This document shows, piece by piece, positions 6,393-37,811 of a stretch of DNA of 37,811 nucleotides. How positions within the stretch are numbered: the stretch's first letter is position 1; each line of letters begins with the position of its first letter. Below the pieces are notes generated by a model. It saw only the letters and a list, made by a program, of their open reading frames with translations. It did no database searches and was not told where the DNA came from. Made by a program: the position numbers and the translations under genes. Source of the DNA: a virus; the IMG/VR virus record IMGVR_UViG_3300044730_000471, positions 1 through 37,811 of that record. One strand, given 5' to 3'.

Positions 6393-6599
6393 CTATATCG
6401 AGTATTTATCTTGATGCCAATAAAAACAGTAATCAAAAACAATTGTTTCTACGCTTTCGTTTTCATATTGAAACATACTCATTGCTGTTTCAATTTCGAT
6501 TAACAAGTTAGCCGTTCCGTATGCAGGGCATACAAGCGTTAACACTTTGCACTTAAATTGCTCTACGTTGTTTTCGGTTATTAGGTTTGATGCGTTCAT
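6393..6599 (-). CDS. Small accessory protein (68 aa) in a promoter-terminator cassette
   Basis: I start this gene at 6599 (MNASNLITENN). A longer reading to 6638 would run into the promoter at 6628-6658, and the same promoter-leader precedes three other genes with ATG at the equivalent place. The product is acidic and contains cysteines and aromatic residues toward its C terminus (FDYCFYWHQDKYSI). No family recognised. It has its own promoter and terminator and sits between the scaffold and capsid transcripts, so it looks like a moron-type accessory gene. Confidence 0.75.
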   Translation of the reverse strand: MNASNLITENNVEQFKCKVLTLVCPAYGTANLLIEIETAMSMFQYENESVETIVFDYCFYWHQDKYSI

Positions 6600-6627
6600 G
6601 GTGTGAATGTTTAAATGTTTAACTCTG

Positions 6628-6658
6628 CAAACATACAAACATTATTTGAATCTGCAAA
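6628..6658 (-). promoter_or_regulatory. Moron promoter P1
   Basis: Minus strand: TTTG (6658-6655), 19-nt spacer, TATGTTTG (6635-6628). The spacer (starting CAGATTCAAA) and the leader (TTAAACATTTAAACATTCAC) closely resemble those of P2 (8.6 kb), P3 (27.4 kb) and P4 (33.7 kb). No Shine-Dalgarno sequence is present before the ATG. Confidence 0.88.
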
Positions 6659-6710
6659 CTATTTCATAAAAATATTTAAACTTTTTTTGTAAGTGCTTAA
6701 TTTACTGCAT

Positions 6711-8209: not shown

Positions 8210-8578
8210 TTATCTTGTTAATGATTTAACATTAAATTTTTTTGCAGATTCTTGTCGTAAATTTTTTATTTTAATAAAAATAACATCCCATTCAGGATTA
8301 GTAAAATGATATTTATCTATTTCTTCATTTAACTGCAAACCGCCCATTTGTACAAAGTATTCATTTGCTTTAGCTAAATTAATCGCATATTGCTTTTTAA
8401 CCTCTGCGTTTACTTCAGAATCTTTTTTTAATCCCAAATTTCTTTTAACGCAAGTTGAGCCGTAGTGTAAAAGGGTATCGTTAATTTCAACTGCGTATGT
8501 ACCTTTTAATTCTGTTTTGCCGCAGCATCCGCATTCGTTAACCGATTCTGTAAAGCCGAAAATTCTGTAAGTGTTCAT
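8210..8578 (-). CDS. Small zinc-binding accessory protein (122 aa)
   Basis: The N terminus carries NECGCCGKTELKGTYAV, two CxxC-like cysteine pairs, followed by LLHYGSTCVKRNLG with another cysteine. This pattern is seen in small phage proteins thought to bind zinc. The rest is a lysine-rich helical tail. It has a private promoter (P2) and terminator and separates the MuF-like gene from the scaffold transcript, so it is a moron-type insertion in the head module. Function unknown. Confidence 0.78.
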   Translation of the reverse strand: MNTYRIFGFTESVNECGCCGKTELKGTYAVEINDTLLHYGSTCVKRNLGLKKDSEVNAEVKKQYAINLAKANEYFVQMGGLQLNEEIDKYHFTNPEWDVIFIKIKNLRQESAKKFNVKSLTR

Positions 8579-8606
8579 GGTGTAGGTGTGTGATTGTTTA
8601 ACAGCA

Positions 8607-8637
8607 CAAATATATAAACTCTTTTTGAATCTGCAAA
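8607..8637 (-). promoter_or_regulatory. Moron promoter P2
   Basis: Minus strand TTTG (8637-8634), 19-nt spacer, TATATTTG (8614-8607). Upstream (TTTTATGAAATAG) and spacer (CAGATTCAAA) are shared with P1, and the leader ends in TTAAACAATCACAC before the ATG at 8578. Confidence 0.88.
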
Positions 8638-8671
8638 CTATTTCATAAAAAAAGTAAAAATATTTTTTTTG

Positions 8672-11557: not shown

Positions 11558-12225
11558 AAAAGCTTTATTAGTTTGTCGTGTTGACTTTGCAAAAATACTT
11601 TATTATCCATTTGCCCGCGCCAAAGGGCGTTAGATTGAATCTTTAAATCTGCGATGTGCTGCGCAATATTAGAAGGGTGGGCAATCTTAATTAACTCGAT
11701 TTGGTTAGCTAAACAATGTACCGATAGTTGCACATCGACGTAATTATTACGCTCAAATTGAACCTCTTTTAAATTTAAAATTGATTCATCCCAAACCGAC
11801 AAACCTACACCCAGCATTGAACATTTAACATCTGTTTCAAACGTTTTCCACGATTCGAGATTAGCCCAAGATTTAAAATAATCTTTGTCATTTAAAAACC
11901 GATAACCCCAAAAAGAGCAAAACGCGTTAGGGTTGCGTTCTAAGCCCTTTAAAGCGGTTTCAATGTATTGGTTAGATGCTATAAAATCATCGTCAATAAT
12001 TAAATTAACACCGTCGCCTACGTGCTTTAATCGTTCAGCAGAGCCTTTATTCGTATCGTTGTAAACATAGTTTAATTCAATAGGGCTTTTAAATTCGTGG
12101 CGAAAGCCCTGCAATATAAGCGTAATTAAGTCGGGCATAATGGATTGTTTGTTTAACGAATCAATTAACCGCTGTGCTACGCTTATTCGGTTGCGCTGAA
12201 CTGCTATGTTAACTTGTATGTTCAC
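11554..12225 (-). CDS. Glycosyltransferase, GT-A fold (GT2-like)
   Basis: This 223-residue protein has a GT-A layout: an N-terminal strand and helix (VNIAVQRNRISVAQRLIDSL), a NKGSAERLKH stretch, then LIIDDDFIAS near residues 75-84, where the DDD would hold the metal and nucleotide sugar. It is shorter than most GT2 enzymes, so the acceptor domain is reduced. It overlaps the methyltransferase gene upstream by 4 nt. With its neighbours it probably decorates a virion protein or host polymer. The substrate cannot be told from sequence. Confidence 0.72.
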   Translation of the reverse strand: MNIQVNIAVQRNRISVAQRLIDSLNKQSIMPDLITLILQGFRHEFKSPIELNYVYNDTNKGSAERLKHVGDGVNLIIDDDFIASNQYIETALKGLERNPNAFCSFWGYRFLNDKDYFKSWANLESWKTFETDVKCSMLGVGLSVWDESILNLKEVQFERNNYVDVQLSVHCLANQIELIKIAHPSNIAQHIADLKIQSNALWRGQMDNKVFLQSQHDKLIKLL

Positions 12226-12818
12226 CTTTTCAATATCGATAAGCCACGACCTTCTGAAGTGTTAAGGGTAACAACGTTGTATTTATACTGAATAGCAACT
12301 CTCATTAACTGTTTAATATCGTGCATATGTATCGAATCATGATAAGCGATAACGCCGTTTTTAGATATTATTTGGCGTATCTCTTTAAACTCGTTAAACA
12401 CCGTATGCCAACTATGGTCGCCGTCTACAAAAATAAAATCGAAATGCCCGCGTGGTAATGCTTTTAAGGCGTTAATAGAATCCTTTAAAATAAAATCTAC
12501 GGCTACGCCTTCGCGGTTTAAGTTATATTTCCTGTAATCGGTTACATCAATGCCAGCGTAATAACCGCCTATCGGTAGCGCCTCAATCATTTTAATAGAT
12601 GTTTCGCCCTCGAATACACCAATTTCTAAAACGGTTTTCGCGCCGGTCATTTTAATAAGCGATGCGATAAACTCGCAAACATCAACCTCACTACTCCATT
12701 CGTGGCGGGTTACTTGCTTTTCGGGTAGCGGCTCAAGTCCGTAAATCTCGATAGGTTTTTCGGCTTTTGCCTTTTTGGGTTTTGTAGCCTTTTTAGGCTT
12801 ATCGTTTTCCTGTAACAT
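12222..12818 (-). CDS. Class I SAM-dependent methyltransferase
   Basis: This 198-residue protein starts with a Lys/Pro/Ala-rich leader (about 1-30). A Rossmann methyltransferase core follows: VLEIGVFEGETSIKMIEAL (motif I, acidic Glu and glycine), an AGIDVTDYRKYN strand (motif II), FDFIFVDGDHSW (motif IV), and NGVIAYHDSI. This is the Methyltransf_24 type associated with sugars and surface polymers. Placed between two glycosyltransferases, it probably methylates a sugar they add. It overlaps the upstream GT8-like gene by 20 nt and the downstream GT by 4 nt. Confidence 0.82.
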   Translation of the reverse strand: MLQENDKPKKATKPKKAKAEKPIEIYGLEPLPEKQVTRHEWSSEVDVCEFIASLIKMTGAKTVLEIGVFEGETSIKMIEALPIGGYYAGIDVTDYRKYNLNREGVAVDFILKDSINALKALPRGHFDFIFVDGDHSWHTVFNEFKEIRQIISKNGVIAYHDSIHMHDIKQLMRVAIQYKYNVVTLNTSEGRGLSILKR

Positions 12819-26854: not shown

Positions 26855-27328
26855 TTAAACTGAAAGAGTATATTTTCGCACTACATATTTTGAGCCGTAG
26901 CATTCAAAACATATACCTTGACAATAGTAGTGAAAAGCAGGTATAATGCCCTTACCATGACATCTTTCGCATTCGCAAATCTCTAATCCGCTAACTTTCA
27001 TTGTTGCAGTATGCTTTTCTGCTACATTCGGATTTTGAAGAAATTTACCTACTTGCTTTAAAACATCATCGGCAGTAATGTAAGGCTGAATATAAGCCCT
27101 TCTAACCCAACCATACGCTTTTAATTCAACATTGAAGTTCTGTTTATTGCCGTTTGCATCAACATAATTCTTATTCGTCCAAACTTTGCCGTTTTCGCAA
27201 ATTTTCACTTCTATAATTCCATCCTCTAAAACCTTATTAAGAGTTTTAACAATGTGGCTACGATTGTCGCCCTGTTCAGGTCTATTAGCGGATTTAAAAA
27301 GTTCGTTTACTAAATTTTGTGCTTTCAT
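26855..27328 (-). CDS. DnaJ-type zinc-finger accessory protein (157 aa)
   Basis: I start at MKAQNLVNELFKSANRPEQG (27328), not at an upstream ATG at 27367 which lies inside promoter P3. The C-terminal end holds CERCHGKGIIPAFHYYCQGI followed by CFECYGS, two DnaJ-like CxxCxG units that bind zinc. The N-terminal 110 residues look like a separate alpha/beta domain. A private promoter and a hairpin at its end mark it as one of the four moron-type cassettes. Confidence 0.8.
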   Translation of the reverse strand: MKAQNLVNELFKSANRPEQGDNRSHIVKTLNKVLEDGIIEVKICENGKVWTNKNYVDANGNKQNFNVELKAYGWVRRAYIQPYITADDVLKQVGKFLQNPNVAEKHTATMKVSGLEICECERCHGKGIIPAFHYYCQGICFECYGSKYVVRKYTLSV

Positions 27329-27356
27329 TGTGTAAGTGTTTAAGAGTTTGATGCAG

Positions 27357-27387
27357 CAAACATACAACTCTTTTTTGATTATGCAAA
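27357..27387 (-). promoter_or_regulatory. Moron promoter P3
   Basis: Minus strand TTTG (27387-27384), 19-nt spacer (CATAATCAAAAAAGAGTTG), TATGTTTG (27364-27357). It is followed by a leader ending TTAAACACTTACACA before the ATG at 27328. Same family as P1, P2 and P4. Confidence 0.88.
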
Positions 27388-27419
27388 CTTTTTCTAAATT
27401 ATTTTAAAAATATTTTTTC

Positions 27420-33475: not shown

Positions 33476-33646
33476 TTAGTTAAAGAATTTTACAATTTCA
33501 GTTAATGTGAAGTCGATAGTTATTAAGCGCTGAAATTCTTCACAAAAATATTCGCAGCTTACTCGAGTTCCTGAAATTTCTTTTACGGTTAGTATTTGAC
33601 CGTTAAGACCTTTGTAGTTTGATTTTGTTTTTACTTGTGCTTTCAT
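33476..33646 (-). CDS. Small accessory protein (56 aa) in a promoter-terminator cassette
   Basis: This gene reads MKAQVKTKSNYKGLNGQILT and continues VKEISGTRVSCEYFCEEFQR. The NGQILTVKEISGTRV pattern looks like a small SH3-like barrel. It has its own promoter P4 and terminator, and its leader resembles those of the genes at 6393, 8210 and 26855. The fourth moron-type cassette, placed between the lysis genes and the recombination cluster. Confidence 0.78.
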   Translation of the reverse strand: MKAQVKTKSNYKGLNGQILTVKEISGTRVSCEYFCEEFQRLITIDFTLTEIVKFFN

Positions 33647-33682
33647 CGTGTGAATGTTTAAGTGTGTGATTGTTTAACACTG

Positions 33683-33713
33683 CAAACATACAACCTTTTT
33701 TTGATTCTGCAAT
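33683..33713 (-). promoter_or_regulatory. Moron promoter P4
   Basis: Minus strand ATTG (33713-33710), 19-nt spacer (CAGAATCAAAAAAAGGTTG), TATGTTTG (33690-33683), then a leader with TTAAACAATCACACACTTAA before the ATG at 33646. The -33 box differs from P1-P3 by one base. Confidence 0.82.
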
Positions 33714-33767
33714 ACCTTTACAAAAATAAATGCAAAATAATTCATAAAACGCTGATTTTTAACGCGT

Positions 33768-34412
33768 CTAATTTTGCGCCCGTGCGATACCGAAACCAAT
33801 AAGCGCACCGAAACCGACCTTTGCTGCCGTTGTTTCGTACCATTTTTTGCGCGGTTGCTCTATTACATAGCTGCGCAGCCCTTCGGCTACCATGTTCGGG
33901 TTATCGATTGCAACCCTTACCACGCTTTCGCGCTTACGAAACGGGAAAACACCGCGTAAAGTATCGCCTATACCTACCGAAATAGTAGCCGGTATGCTTA
34001 AAGTATCGATTTGAAGGTATCCGAGGCGGTTAATTTTGCCCGTAATACTGAACCAGCGCTCAAACTTTTGAAATTCACGCGGCAAAACAAGCGCGGGAAC
34101 GCTATCACGTATATAAATCGGCTCTCCTAATTCTATTTTAGTCTTAAAAACGGTGCGCGTAATGACCTCGACCGCCGCTTTTGGCTTATCGATGCGCAAT
34201 TTTTCGGTTAAGTCTTTAAGTTCTGTGATTTGTTGCCCCTGTGTGTATATCGTTAACGAATCGTTTACGTGCGTTTTAACGAACTTTTGCTCTGTTAATG
34301 CCGTTTGGGCTTGCTGATGGCACGAACGCACCAAAAACAGGCTTAAAACGGCTAAAAATAGCAACCTTTCAAGCCAAACGTAACTCAACGATGTATTTTT
34401 CGATTCTTTCAC
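33768..34412 (-). CDS. Membrane-anchored lysis-region protein, spanin candidate
   Basis: An N-terminal membrane segment (LERLLFLAVLSLFLVRSC, about 15-32) is followed by a periplasmic-type domain with a short coiled coil (ITELKDLTEKLRID) and beta-rich part. A hydrophobic C-terminal stretch (TTAAKVGFGALIGFGIARAQ) could touch the outer membrane. This two-ended layout in a lysis cluster suggests a spanin-like role in joining inner and outer membranes. Similar anchored proteins occur in lysis regions of Bacteroidota phages. No lipobox other than SC at the end of the first segment is seen. Confidence 0.6.
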   Translation of the reverse strand: MKESKNTSLSYVWLERLLFLAVLSLFLVRSCHQQAQTALTEQKFVKTHVNDSLTIYTQGQQITELKDLTEKLRIDKPKAAVEVITRTVFKTKIELGEPIYIRDSVPALVLPREFQKFERWFSITGKINRLGYLQIDTLSIPATISVGIGDTLRGVFPFRKRESVVRVAIDNPNMVAEGLRSYVIEQPRKKWYETTAAKVGFGALIGFGIARAQN

Positions 34413-34527
34413 GGCATTTCGCGTTTTCGTTTAGTATTGCTTTTGCAACGTTTGGCGGCATTTCGCGCTCGGTTAGGTAAATCTTTAGAACCTTTATGAG
34501 CCGCTTATCGATTTGCTTATCATTCAT
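34369..34527 (-). CDS. Small helical protein (52 aa)
   Basis: Reads MNDKQIDKRLIKVLKIYLTE and continues REMPPNVAKAILNENAKCRE, an all-helical basic protein. The start overlaps the stop of the PAS-HisKA gene as ATGA (34527-34524) and the end overlaps the next gene by 44 nt. It may be co-translated with the PAS-HisKA protein and act with it. No family recognised. Confidence 0.65.
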   Translation of the reverse strand: MNDKQIDKRLIKVLKIYLTEREMPPNVAKAILNENAKCRERIEKYIVELRLA

Positions 34528-35108
34528 ATTTGGCGCGTTGCTTTTTTTACTAATGTACGCACGGCTTCGTCCAAATTTACAACCGATTCCTCTAACATTC
34601 GCAAAAGGTCGTCGCGTTCCTTTTCGGATATTGATTTATTGCCGCTAATTAGCTTTACCAAACCACTAACCGAGGTTAACGGTTGCCGTAATTCATGCGA
34701 AAGCATAAAACGAAATTCCTCAAGTAGTACCCGTTGTCGTTCGTGTTCATGCGCGCTTATGCTGGTTACATCAACAAGCTGAAAGCCGATAAAATGCACC
34801 GCGCCCATGATTGTGTAAATATTCCAAACGTTAAAGCGCTCAGATAAATTCTTTTGCTTCGTTCGGGCGTAAACCCTCGAGGGTTCGGGCTGTTTGTCTT
34901 TAGCCCTTTTTACGGCTTCTATGAGCGTTTCTTTATCCTCAGGGCTGCTAACTATATCAACTATGTTTTTCGGCTTTATATGGCTTGCGTAATGCTTAAA
35001 AAGTTCGTTAGCGCTTACTATCGTGCCGTCCGATTCGGTAACAACGTAAAATAGGTCTAAAGAATTTTCGAGTATGTACACCGTTGACACGATTGCAAAT
35101 TTAAGCAA
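34524..35108 (-). CDS. PAS-HisKA protein lacking an ATPase domain (truncated histidine kinase)
   Basis: This 194-residue protein has a PAS sensor domain (about 12-115; SLDLFYVVTESDGTIVSANE opens it, HFIGFQLVDVT closes it) and a dimerisation/histidine-phosphotransfer domain with the H-box FRFMLSHELRQPLTSVSGL (His138), followed by the second helix of the pair (SEKERDDLLRMLEESVVNLD). The catalytic ATP-binding domain is absent; the protein stops 15 residues after this helix. It cannot phosphorylate itself alone. It could accept or remove phosphate in a host pathway or pair with a host kinase. It lies within the lysis cluster. A TAAATTTG element overlaps the first codons, so a GTG start at 35090 is possible. 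Confidence 0.85.
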   Translation of the reverse strand: MLKFAIVSTVYILENSLDLFYVVTESDGTIVSANELFKHYASHIKPKNIVDIVSSPEDKETLIEAVKRAKDKQPEPSRVYARTKQKNLSERFNVWNIYTIMGAVHFIGFQLVDVTSISAHEHERQRVLLEEFRFMLSHELRQPLTSVSGLVKLISGNKSISEKERDDLLRMLEESVVNLDEAVRTLVKKATRQI

Positions 35109-35131: not shown

Positions 35132-35530
35132 TTAAACGTTTCGCAAATCGGCAATAAGCGAACGCCATGCAGCGCCGCAACCCATTAAATACTTAGCAGA
35201 AAGCCACAGCGTAAAGCTAAATACAACTCCGTTTAAAAGTATATCGTAATTCATAGGCATCTCCAAATCTTGGGTATTTCTTACGGGCTGAGGTTTCGCG
35301 GTGTAGTACGTTGGGGCTGTTAACAAAGATACATCGCAGGGCTGAATAGTGTCGAATGCGGTCAAAACTATTTCGGGCTTTGCTTTCGGCTGTGCCATGA
35401 CAGCCTCGAAGCTTTCGCGGTTAGCTTGCGCAAAGCTTGTATCTGCATTAGCCGCCTCCCAGCTTATGGTGTCGATGTTCACCTTGTTATGGCGCACGGT
35501 CTTTATTGTATCTCTACGAATCTGCTGCAT
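35132..35530 (-). CDS. Membrane protein of the lysis cluster (132 aa)
   Basis: The first 90 residues are polar with a Pro-rich stretch (TYYTAKPQPVRNTQDLEMPM). One likely membrane segment follows (YDILLNGVVFSFTLWLSAKY, about 95-114) and a short tail with MGCGAAWRSL. It overlaps the holin candidate by 17 nt. It may be a holin partner or antiholin. No family recognised. Confidence 0.6.
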   Translation of the reverse strand: MQQIRRDTIKTVRHNKVNIDTISWEAANADTSFAQANRESFEAVMAQPKAKPEIVLTAFDTIQPCDVSLLTAPTYYTAKPQPVRNTQDLEMPMNYDILLNGVVFSFTLWLSAKYLMGCGAAWRSLIADLRNV

Positions 35531-35720
35531 CGCTCTTTGCTTTTGGTATGTATCCTGCGGCTATTAGTGCTGCAATTATGGCTGTTAATGTTTCGGCTGT
35601 TATCACTTTAAAGATTAGTAAAAAGATGGATACCAAAATCATCAGCGAGCCGATTGTTCCACGCCAGTGCTTGACAACAATATCTACAACTCGCCTCGGT
35701 TTGGTAGCACGTTTTCGCAT
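35514..35720 (-). CDS. Holin candidate (68 aa)
   Basis: A basic N terminus (MRKRATKPRRVVDIVVKHWR) is followed by two closely spaced hydrophobic segments (GSLMILVSIFLLIFKVIT and LTAIIAALIAAGYI, about 24-57) and a short charged end. Small size, two membrane segments and position next to the endolysin gene fit a class II-type holin that opens the inner membrane to the enzyme. Confidence 0.68.
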   Translation of the reverse strand: MRKRATKPRRVVDIVVKHWRGTIGSLMILVSIFLLIFKVITAETLTAIIAALIAAGYIPKAKSDAADS

Positions 35721-35766: not shown

Positions 35767-36225
35767 TCAGAAATTACAAAGTGAGAAATACAGATTCGCT
35801 TCTTCGCGCCTGCGATTGGTTAGCCCTGTAAGCACTTTGCCCCCTGCCTTGTTCCACTTCAGGAACTCATCCAGTATGCTTGGGTCGGCTGCGTTTACTT
35901 TGGCTTTCTTCAGCAATGTGGATTTAATCAGAGCACCCGTGCCGACATTATAGCTAAATGCCACCAACGCATCGAACTGGCATTGATTCAAATTCGGTAG
36001 GTGCTTATTTACCGCCGCTTCAAACGGCTCAAGTGTAGCAAGTAGCAATTGCGTTGCTTCCTTTTCGCTTGCGAGCTTTTCACCCAGCAGAACCTTTTTG
36101 CCGTTCGGGTAGCGTGTCGAGCCGTAGCCTATCGTTGGCACTCCAGCAGGGCAGAGGTAGGAACTAAGCCGCAATCCCTCGTACTTCTTAATCAGGTTCA
36201 GACCGAGAAGCGAGGTGCTGCGCAT
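35767..36225 (-). CDS. Endolysin, GH24 lysozyme (muramidase)
   Basis: This 152-residue lysozyme carries KKYEGLRLSSYLCPAGVPTI with catalytic Glu16, Cys25 and Thr31, which exactly fits the E-8aa-(D/C)-5aa-T rule of phage T4-type lysozymes; the T4 aspartate is replaced by Cys, as in P1-like enzymes. Further matches are GYGST, ALVAFSYNVGTGAL and TGLTNRRREEANLY. It cuts peptidoglycan between MurNAc and GlcNAc. No signal or SAR segment is present, so it should need the adjacent holin. One base separates it from the upstream gene. Confidence 0.95.
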   Translation of the reverse strand: MRSTSLLGLNLIKKYEGLRLSSYLCPAGVPTIGYGSTRYPNGKKVLLGEKLASEKEATQLLLATLEPFEAAVNKHLPNLNQCQFDALVAFSYNVGTGALIKSTLLKKAKVNAADPSILDEFLKWNKAGGKVLTGLTNRRREEANLYFSLCNF

Positions 36226-36726
36226 TTAGAGAATGATGTATTGGATGTTGGCAACTGCGGTTAAAGTATCACCAGAAGTTGCAAGTTCAATAGTAAAGCT
36301 AATTTGGTCGAATGCTGTATCAGCATTTATAACTGCGCTAACTAAATTAGCATAAGGGTCTGTAATTGGAGTAAGTACACCAAACGCATCGCGAGCATTT
36401 GTAAAATTACTTGCAACAGGTGGCGCAATATTGAAGCTGCCTACTGTAATTCCAACGTCTAAGGTAATACTTAAATAATAAGTGCAAGTAACAATGTTAT
36501 TTACACGGCTATACAAAGCACGCAAGCAAGTTACGGTACAATCGTTTTCGCCCGATATGGTTGCACTCGAAGTAAAATCCCCACCCCCTATATCAGGCAA
36601 ACCGCTAAATAGGTTCTGCACCTCAATCTTTTTAGATTGGTTCGCAGTTGTATCCACGATGTACATGATATCCGTTGGGTCTGCCGTTCCTAACGGGGTT
36701 AAATCGGTTACTTTAACGCCTGCCAT
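36226..36726 (-). CDS. Fibre-like structural protein (166 aa)
   Basis: Begins MAGVKVTDLTPLGTADPTDI followed by MYIVDTTANQSKKIEVQNLF, a starting block I associate with tail-fibre-type proteins of Bacteroidota phages (VTDL-x-PLGTAxxTDIxYIVD). The rest is a beta-rich C-terminal domain with a C-x3-C pair (CTVTCLRAL). It may be an accessory fibre or spike. It lies between the fibre tip locus and the endolysin. Its first 22 codons appear again at 1-66 because of the assembly overlap. Confidence 0.72.
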   Translation of the reverse strand: MAGVKVTDLTPLGTADPTDIMYIVDTTANQSKKIEVQNLFSGLPDIGGGDFTSSATISGENDCTVTCLRALYSRVNNIVTCTYYLSITLDVGITVGSFNIAPPVASNFTNARDAFGVLTPITDPYANLVSAVINADTAFDQISFTIELATSGDTLTAVANIQYIIL

Positions 36727-36751
36727 AAGGGTTGTTTTTAGTTTGGTAAAT

Positions 36752-36937
36752 TTACAAATTATTTAGATACTCTAACGCATCTTCTGAACTATCAATTTTT
36801 GCTTGTTGTTTATCGTATTCAACCGCCCATTCTTTAACGATTTCTTCAATTTCTTGTTCTTTTAAATCAACTCTGTCAGCACCAATCATTCGGTGCGTTG
36901 GCGAATCAAATGGGTACTCTTTTCCGTTGACTATCAT
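36752..36937 (-). CDS. Small tip-linked protein, allele 2 (61 aa)
   Basis: Reads MIVNGKEYPFDSPTHRMIGA and ends DSSEDALEYLNNL. Only the ending is shared with the 72-residue gene at 92-310, which takes its place on the other allele. The helical middle (DLKEQEIEEIVKEWAVEYDK) is charged. It overlaps the fibre stop as ATGA. Likely cognate to the fibre tip next to it. Confidence 0.75.
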   Translation of the reverse strand: MIVNGKEYPFDSPTHRMIGADRVDLKEQEIEEIVKEWAVEYDKQQAKIDSSEDALEYLNNL

Positions 36938-37811
36938 AGGTAAGATTCGATTATTATTTTTCCGCTTATATTACCAGTACTACACTGAAACCTTAAAGAC
37001 GTTACTGCATCGGTCGCATTGTATAGACCGTGAATTGTACCGCCCACGAATAAGCCGCTATTAAATATCGTACTTATGTTTCCGTTGACTTGCTTTTTTA
37101 AGGTAGTGCTGTCAGGGTTATACAATGTATAGTTCCCGTTAAATGCTTGACCGCTCGAACCAGTTGGCATTGCAGCACCTAATAACACCATCTTAGTGTC
37201 ACTTGCAGAACCAGTGTTAGCTAATGCAGTAGAAGACCCTCCAAGTATTCTGTAATGCGAGTAATTGCCTGCACCCGATTGAATTACTGATGGACTACCA
37301 ATACCAACTCTATGCCATAATTCCGAGTTAGCCGTCCCGGCTGTAATATCGACCATAAAAATCTTATGGTGTGAGTAACCAACAGGAATTGGTACGTCTA
37401 AACTTGCTGCACTCGAAGCGATGTATTCATTTCGAACAAAGCCACTGGGCATTGTCGCAAGCGTTCCATCGCCTCTCACATATTGCGCTGTCGTGCCGCT
37501 TGGCGTGTTGAACTTGCCATTGAATGTAGTCCAATCCGCTGTGCTTAATGCGCCTCGATTGCTTGCGCTGGCAGTTGGTAGATTGAAAGTGTGCGTGCTG
37601 CTTGCCGAGCTTATGCCGAAGTCCGTGCCGCTTGTACCCGTTGCGAAGTTTTGCACTTGCGCGGTCAAGCCGTTTAATGCGTTTAGCCCTGTGGTGAAAG
37701 TTGTGAGTACTTGGCAAAGGTTGTTGTCCTCAGTGTGCAGCGTAATGTTTCGCCCCGATGTAGTTACGAAAATGCGTACTGCGAGCCTATCAGTTGCAGC
37801 CAATACTATCG
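36934..37811 (-). CDS. Tail fibre C-terminal part, allele 2 (cut by window edge)
   Basis: The frame runs off the right edge, so the true start lies outside this reading. The first 120 or so residues match the fibre at 307-2661 (LAATDRLAVRIFVTTSGRNI through STADWTTFNGKF and QYVRGDGTLA). After that the sequence departs entirely: PSGFVRNEYIASSAASLDVP starts a different distal tip of about 170 residues ending GKIIIESYL. It is an alternative receptor-binding end of the same fibre. Confidence 0.85.
   Translation of the reverse strand, partial: IVLAATDRLAVRIFVTTSGRNITLHTEDNNLCQVLTTFTTGLNALNGLTAQVQNFATGTSGTDFGISSASSTHTFNLPTASASNRGALSTADWTTFNGKFNTPSGTTAQYVRGDGTLATMPSGFVRNEYIASSAASLDVPIPVGYSHHKIFMVDITAGTANSELWHRVGIGSPSVIQSGAGNYSHYRILGGSSTALANTGSASDTKMVLLGAAMPTGSSGQAFNGNYTLYNPDSTTLKKQVNGNISTIFNSGLFVGGTIHGLYNATDAVTSLRFQCSTGNISGKIIIESYL

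Follow-up and report, generated by a model that had tools for sequence, protein, structure and literature searches.

A phage gene that encodes a predicted PAS domain followed by a DHp (HisKA) domain, and then stops, belongs to the core gene set of its phage group and is under strong purifying selection. We put at about even the chance that its 188-residue product, the PAS-DHp protein, is a phage-made cytosolic sensor half-kinase that is phosphorylatable, poor in phosphatase activity and acts on a host two-component pathway. These phages carry the sensor and phosphate-accepting half of a kinase as a regular gene, and the results suggest that they plug it into host signalling. The stretch of DNA analyzed here (the window) covers the whole of IMG/VR record IMGVR_UViG_3300044730_000471, 37,811 bases, and bears most of its genes on the minus strand.

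The open reading frame singled out in a first-pass annotation of this DNA (34524-35108, minus strand; 194 codons counted from the first TTG) is real. Because its relatives start with ATG or GTG at codon 7 of that frame, the gene is best read as follows:

34524-35090, minus strand: PAS-DHp (HisKA) protein, 188 aa, GTG start and TGA stop; PAS spanning roughly residues 11-105, two DHp helices (113-150 and 156-187), with acceptor His132, Glu133 and Gln136

With the GTG at 35090 as start, the H-box histidine of the annotation, correctly recognized there as His138, becomes His132. Pfam family PF00512 (HisKA) matches the window protein with E 6.6e-7, at 29.7 bits against a curated cut-off of 26.9, and, at an E-value of 0.1 or better, all 18 of the 18 proteins in alignment A1. 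Sequence profiles support the PAS domain only weakly, below cut-off (TIGR00229, E 0.0042; PAS_9 in one of the 18 members of A1), but it is clear in the predicted structure: the AlphaFold2 model (mean pLDDT 81.7, pTM 0.79) places a PAS fold at about residues 11-105, to which solved PAS domains align with Z about 13 and rmsd about 2.1 Å over 94 residues, ahead of the two DHp helices at 113-150 and 156-187. The two domains are joined by a D107-V108-T109 linker that is invariant in the 18-member alignment, and no membrane segment is predicted. In the model the chain ends with the second DHp helix, where the ATPase domain of a kinase would start, so that the architecture originally described, a PAS domain and an H-box with its paired helix and then a stop, is borne out by the PF00512 match, the model and the position of the chain end.

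The order PAS then DHp is common to the PAS-HisKA-HATPase kinases, such as PhoR (TIGR02966), PnpS, Thermotoga ThkA (3a0r) and the engineered LOV-kinase YF1 (4gcz), from which the phage protein differs in having neither an ATPase domain nor a predicted membrane segment. The PhoR model matches residues 15-181 with E 6.5e-8 (5.1e-10 for the related copy L053), ThkA matches residues 101-182 at 4e-5, and the first PDB match returned by Foldseek is YF1. Membership in the PhoR family was rejected, the scores of 32 bits for the window protein and 38.9 bits for L053 standing against an equivalog cut-off of 334.2. A LOV photoreceptor was rejected too: there is no conserved adduct-forming cysteine, Cys never reaching a majority in any column across the 135 copies.

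A complete sensor histidine kinase carries a C-terminal HATPase_c domain, which the phage protein lacks. A PF02518 search found no HATPase_c domain in the six frames of the window, nor in any of the 22 related records examined (30-52 kb), some of which may be fragments, such that a gene lying outside them is conceivable; the receiver domain (PF00072) was likewise absent from these 22 possibly fragmentary records. Control searches for HATPase_c and receiver domains were positive in 14/14 and 12/14 genomes, respectively. A frameshifted or separate ATPase was rejected on the six-frame search of the window and the related records, and the first-pass annotation was right to see no such frame hidden downstream, where the DNA instead encodes a separate 52-aa protein. 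No DHp domain lacking an ATPase domain is known to phosphorylate itself. The histidine, if used, would therefore involve a host protein, and with neither an ATPase nor a receiver detected in the 22 related records, the source or destination of the phosphate would be a host protein as well. To this extent the earlier proposal that the phage reroutes a host two-component pathway gains from the missing ATPase, from the invariance of the histidine and from the lack of ATPase and receiver domains in the related records.

A scan of IMG/VR returned 283 stretches that encode the PAS-DHp gene, of which the best 80 were taken, and an alignment scan returned 376, again with the best 80 taken. Core status was judged on loci fetched with the lysozyme as bait, so as to avoid sampling only loci fetched by PAS-DHp itself. 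A PAS-DHp match is present in 61 of the 61 lysozyme-fetched contigs that have at least 1,300 nt after the lysozyme (80 fetched; the copies in L037 and L109 are damaged), while the remaining 19 of the 80 end too soon, 8 of them still matching PAS-DHp. A second lysozyme query gave 62/62, the other 18 of its 80 contigs being too short; the two sets have many contigs in common. A further count of 251/251 was set aside, as it is a count of loci, several per contig and mostly fetched by the gene itself.

The stop codon is reached after 188 codons in 135 of 136 distinct gene-plus-flank sequences, and the C-terminus is nearly fixed; ORFs that run off a contig end or fall short of 180 aa had been left out of the collection of relatives. 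His132 and Glu133, the acceptor histidine and adjoining acid (H-E/D) of a HisKA domain, are kept in 135/135 copies, a set that leaves out 14 loci with a cut gene and the frameshifted L226 and that counts L037, in which the first 30 residues are deleted and the first 30 positions are not homologous. The loss of this histidine in relatives, about which the annotation had asked, thus does not occur among these copies. Of 4,000 random pairs, 1,361 had dS of 0.2-1.5 (fewer for some segments), and the median dN/dS was 0.073 for the whole gene, 0.089 for PAS, 0.03 for residues 111-146, 0.115 for 147-169 and 0.05 for 170-188.

It is close to negligible as an explanation, then, that the gene is a decaying and functionless fragment of a captured host kinase. 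The truncated architecture would fit such a fragment, as would the two kinds of damaged copy, frameshifted in L226/L109 and deleted in L037, but the shared stop codon, the low dN/dS and the presence of the gene in every contig with room for it argue that the early stop arose long ago and is maintained by selection. In L037 (1217-1690), a deletion fuses the region of the 132-aa gene to PAS-DHp residue 31, and in L226/L109 (L226 5001-5526), a frameshift falls near residue 97; each may be real or an assembly error. For a cellular ancestor, GTDB scans by exact short peptide patterns, run without a positive control, gave no relative. INPHARED phages and PLSDB plasmids gave only kinase-like DHp segments of 25-42% identity, mostly in Listeria records; the Listeria "phage" records may hold bacterial DNA.

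The segment of lowest dN/dS, residues 111-146, is the H-box helix, and around the H-box surface and core positions are fixed alike. Mean entropy is 0.01 bits at residues 132-138, as against 1.26 bits at 156-169, the stretch of helix 2 near the loop. This variable stretch forms part of the usual regulator-docking side, so that one fixed regulator is not favored.

The residue at H+4 bears on what such an H-box might do. In HisKA kinases, the acid at H+1 is needed for kinase activity alone and the Thr or Asn at H+4 for phosphatase activity alone, and an Asn-to-Gln change at H+4 of CrdS left no measurable phosphatase and about 40% less kinase activity (PMC3510030). In place of the Thr or Asn of phosphatase-active HisKA proteins, the phage protein has Gln136 in 134/135 copies and His in the one other. 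By analogy, the H-box points away from a phosphatase sink and toward a phosphate acceptor or donor. This makes it distinctly improbable that the protein is a stand-alone, PAS-controlled DHp domain that removes phosphate from a host response regulator, even though the DHp domains of EnvZ and NtrB suffice by themselves for phosphatase activity (PMC3510030). The first-pass annotation had allowed for a protein that removes phosphate, and the same glutamine counts against that branch of its proposal. Natural kinases with Gln at H+4 do exist, and the loss of phosphatase activity is therefore not certain.

In the half-kinase reading that we prefer, the DHp bundle would dimerize with itself or with a subunit of a host kinase, and His132 would receive phosphate from the ATPase domain of the host kinase, or take it back from a host response regulator that is already phosphorylated. 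With Gln136 standing in for the Thr/Asn needed for phosphatase activity, the phosphate would be held or passed on, rather than that of the regulator being hydrolyzed, and the PAS signal of the phage would set the amount of phosphate reaching one host response regulator. Expression would probably begin early in infection. A more specific version, an "input-swap" that we advance tentatively and think rather less than an even bet, would have the protein pair with a host histidine kinase in a mixed dimer and have its own histidine phosphorylated by the host ATPase domain, thereby bringing one host response regulator under the phage PAS sensor, with a small helical protein encoded by a coupled gene as dedicated regulator or adaptor.

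Pairing with the DHp domain of a host kinase could also serve simply to block autophosphorylation, the histidine of the phage protein going unused. We regard such a pure dominant negative as unlikely, if still to be reckoned with. The DHp helices are complete and the ATPase is absent, and there is precedent in the mixed RetS-GacS DHp-DHp interface, which replaces the GacS homodimer and blocks GacS autophosphorylation (PMC12148439). A blocker would have no need of His132 and Glu133, however, and both are invariant in the 135 copies; nor would it call for surface positions around the H-box to be fixed along with those of the core. Binding alone could nonetheless explain the strong conservation of the H-box.

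The PAS-DHp gene lies among the following neighbors:

35767-36225, minus strand: phage lysozyme (endolysin), Pfam PF00959, E 1.4e-38
35514-35720, minus strand: 68-aa holin-like ORF, weak match to phrog_565 holin, E 0.013
35132-35530, minus strand: fast-evolving 132-aa ORF with a C-terminal hydrophobic stretch, upstream of PAS-DHp
34369-34527, minus strand: 52-aa helical protein of a conserved family of 52-69 aa, its ATG overlapping the PAS-DHp stop (ATGA)
33768-34412, minus strand: 214-aa protein with a hydrophobic stretch at its N-terminus, encoded in overlap with the 52-aa gene; spanin-like by look only

The order lysozyme, holin-like, 132-aa, PAS-DHp, (52-aa), 214-aa is constant among the arrangements listed. 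The 214-aa protein has no family match in Pfam, PHROG or NCBIfam searches. PADLOC gave no match for the PAS-DHp, 52-aa, 214-aa or 132-aa protein, and a role in defence was rejected on that count.

In 127/135 copies the PAS-DHp stop shares bases with the ATG that opens an ORF of 52-69 aa; in the other 8, the ATG lies within about 15 nt, with TATCTTTG just ahead of it in six. As read from this overlap, the small protein is translationally coupled to PAS-DHp, with which it would probably act together. All 20/20 aligned members of its family share D, R, L, K, Y, E, M and P at set positions. The 52-aa protein is helical in a model of low confidence (pLDDT 69.7, pTM 0.39), and searches gave no Pfam family above cut-off, none in NCBIfam and a best PHROG match of E 0.049. 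Sda is a kinase inhibitor that binds a DHp domain and is built as a small helical hairpin; that the 52-aa protein resembles it is only an idea. The coupling to a conserved small protein is also what would be expected of a phospho-independent sensor or scaffold, in which a PAS dimer binds a phage or host protein, the 52-aa protein for example, and the H-box is a leftover structural core. We judge this improbable, since the H-box residues, the exposed His and Glu included, are the most conserved of the protein.

The transcription of the PAS-DHp gene can be considered in terms of two further features:

35096-35103, minus strand: TAAATTTG, a putative Bacteroidota sigma-A -7 box (TAnnTTTG), its first T 13 nt before the start codon
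33449-33467, minus strand: terminator-like hairpin downstream of a 56-aa ORF, a possible end of the PAS-DHp transcript

TAnnTTTG stands 10-18 nt ahead of the PAS-DHp start in 86 of 86 distinct upstreams compared. At the same place it is found ahead of none of the lysis genes (lysozyme 0/121, holin-like 0/126, 132-aa 0/89) and none of the other genes (52-aa 0/20, 214-aa 0/24, 99-aa 0/87, 224-aa 0/48); the 166-aa gene also shows 0/110 there, with 77/110 having one elsewhere in the 60 nt. The box is present in 135/136 distinct copies, only L037 being without it, and the distance from box start to start codon is 12 nt in 121 of the 136, 13 nt in 11 (the window among them) and 15 nt in 3. Across 12 divergent representatives its six fixed bases are invariant and the flanking columns 33-75% identical. 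The variants ahead of TTTG are TATC, TAAA, TATT, TACC, TATA and TAAC, none of them with G at either variable position, in a tally that lacks L259 for its short upstream. The Bacteroidota sigma-A -7 box is TAnnTTTG, in which neither n is G, and it spans -12 to -5 in Flavobacterium johnsoniae (PMC6847099). With that spacing, PAS-DHp transcription would begin at the start codon, and the gene is thus predicted to carry its own leaderless promoter of sigma-A type. Leaderless mRNAs make up just 5.5% in F. psychrophilum (PMC9723704). No -33 element (TTTG) is conserved: in the 12 representatives, column identity stays at or below 0.67 throughout the stretch 6-38 nt ahead of the box.

No terminator-like site was found between PAS-DHp and the upstream lysis genes, so that read-through from the latter is possible; the number of terminator-like hits across the region does not exceed that in shuffled sequence. 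The first-pass annotation placed the gene inside the lysis cluster, which holds insofar as it follows directly after the lysozyme, the holin-like ORF and the 132-aa ORF on the same strand, and is qualified by the conserved promoter-like box of its own. The further suggestion that the rerouted pathway times lysis is unsupported, gene order being the sole link and PAS-DHp, unlike the lysis genes, having its own predicted leaderless promoter. Elsewhere on the minus strand, TATCTTTG boxes stand 12 and 14 nt before the starts of a 348-aa gene (4207) and an 85-aa ORF (8145), which are possible further leaderless promoters of the phage.

The large terminase is nearest, among phages, to that of Flavobacterium phage 11b (31% over 64% of the query) and, among plasmids, to that of a Hymenobacter plasmid (40% over 62%). 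Together with the -7 box, this kinship indicates a host among the Bacteroidota, as far as sequence can tell.

Among known systems, RetS of Pseudomonas aeruginosa is a kinase-like protein whose target is a second kinase, engaged by way of a DHp-DHp interface, and may by functional analogy serve as a working model for the phage protein. RetS is a large membrane protein with an ATPase region of its own, and it differs from the phage protein in size, in location and in that region. Spo0B and ChpT are stand-alone DHp phosphotransferases, with the histidine on a DHp-like four-helix bundle and no kinase activity of their own, and they carry a vestigial ATPase-like C-terminal domain; the phage chain, by comparison, ends after helix 2, and it combines a PAS input with a HisKA H-box. 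BFVD holds short proteins of uncultured phages called "PAS domain" or "histidine kinase" (e.g., A0A6J5KZZ3, 169 aa) that are similar in length and match in fold, at about 15% identity to the phage protein, the comparison being by length and fold alone.

In the literature searched, which leaves most subscription papers outside and was searched in part with narrow terms, we found no phage PAS-HisKA protein without an ATPase domain. The parts described here are of known kinds; the combination of a core phage gene for PAS-DHp alone, a leaderless box and a coupled small protein is new within that literature and INPHARED, and the short phage proteins in BFVD may be similar. If the half-kinase reading is true, a minimal, ATP-free phage sensor that borrows the engine of a host kinase would be a form of two-component takeover absent from the literature searched. 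Because the protein is small, strictly conserved and without a predicted membrane segment, which host regulator the phage must control is testable by way of its partner.

Several observations concern other parts of the window. An O-methyltransferase-like protein (12222-12818, minus strand; PF01596, E 1.3e-14) lies among tail genes, beside ORFs of 314 and 223 aa. Four related repeats of ~60-95 bp, 77-83% identical (6586-6688, 8573-8668, 27316-27408 and 33635-33728), each stand just upstream of a small ORF and may constitute a shared regulatory region. The contig ends are alike, 1-143 matching 36661-36802 at 93% and 794-1151 matching 37454-37811 at 96%; the ends 1-1151 and 36661-37811 might reflect a genome that is circular or permuted and was closed over a strain variant, or else two alleles of a tail-fibre-like gene.
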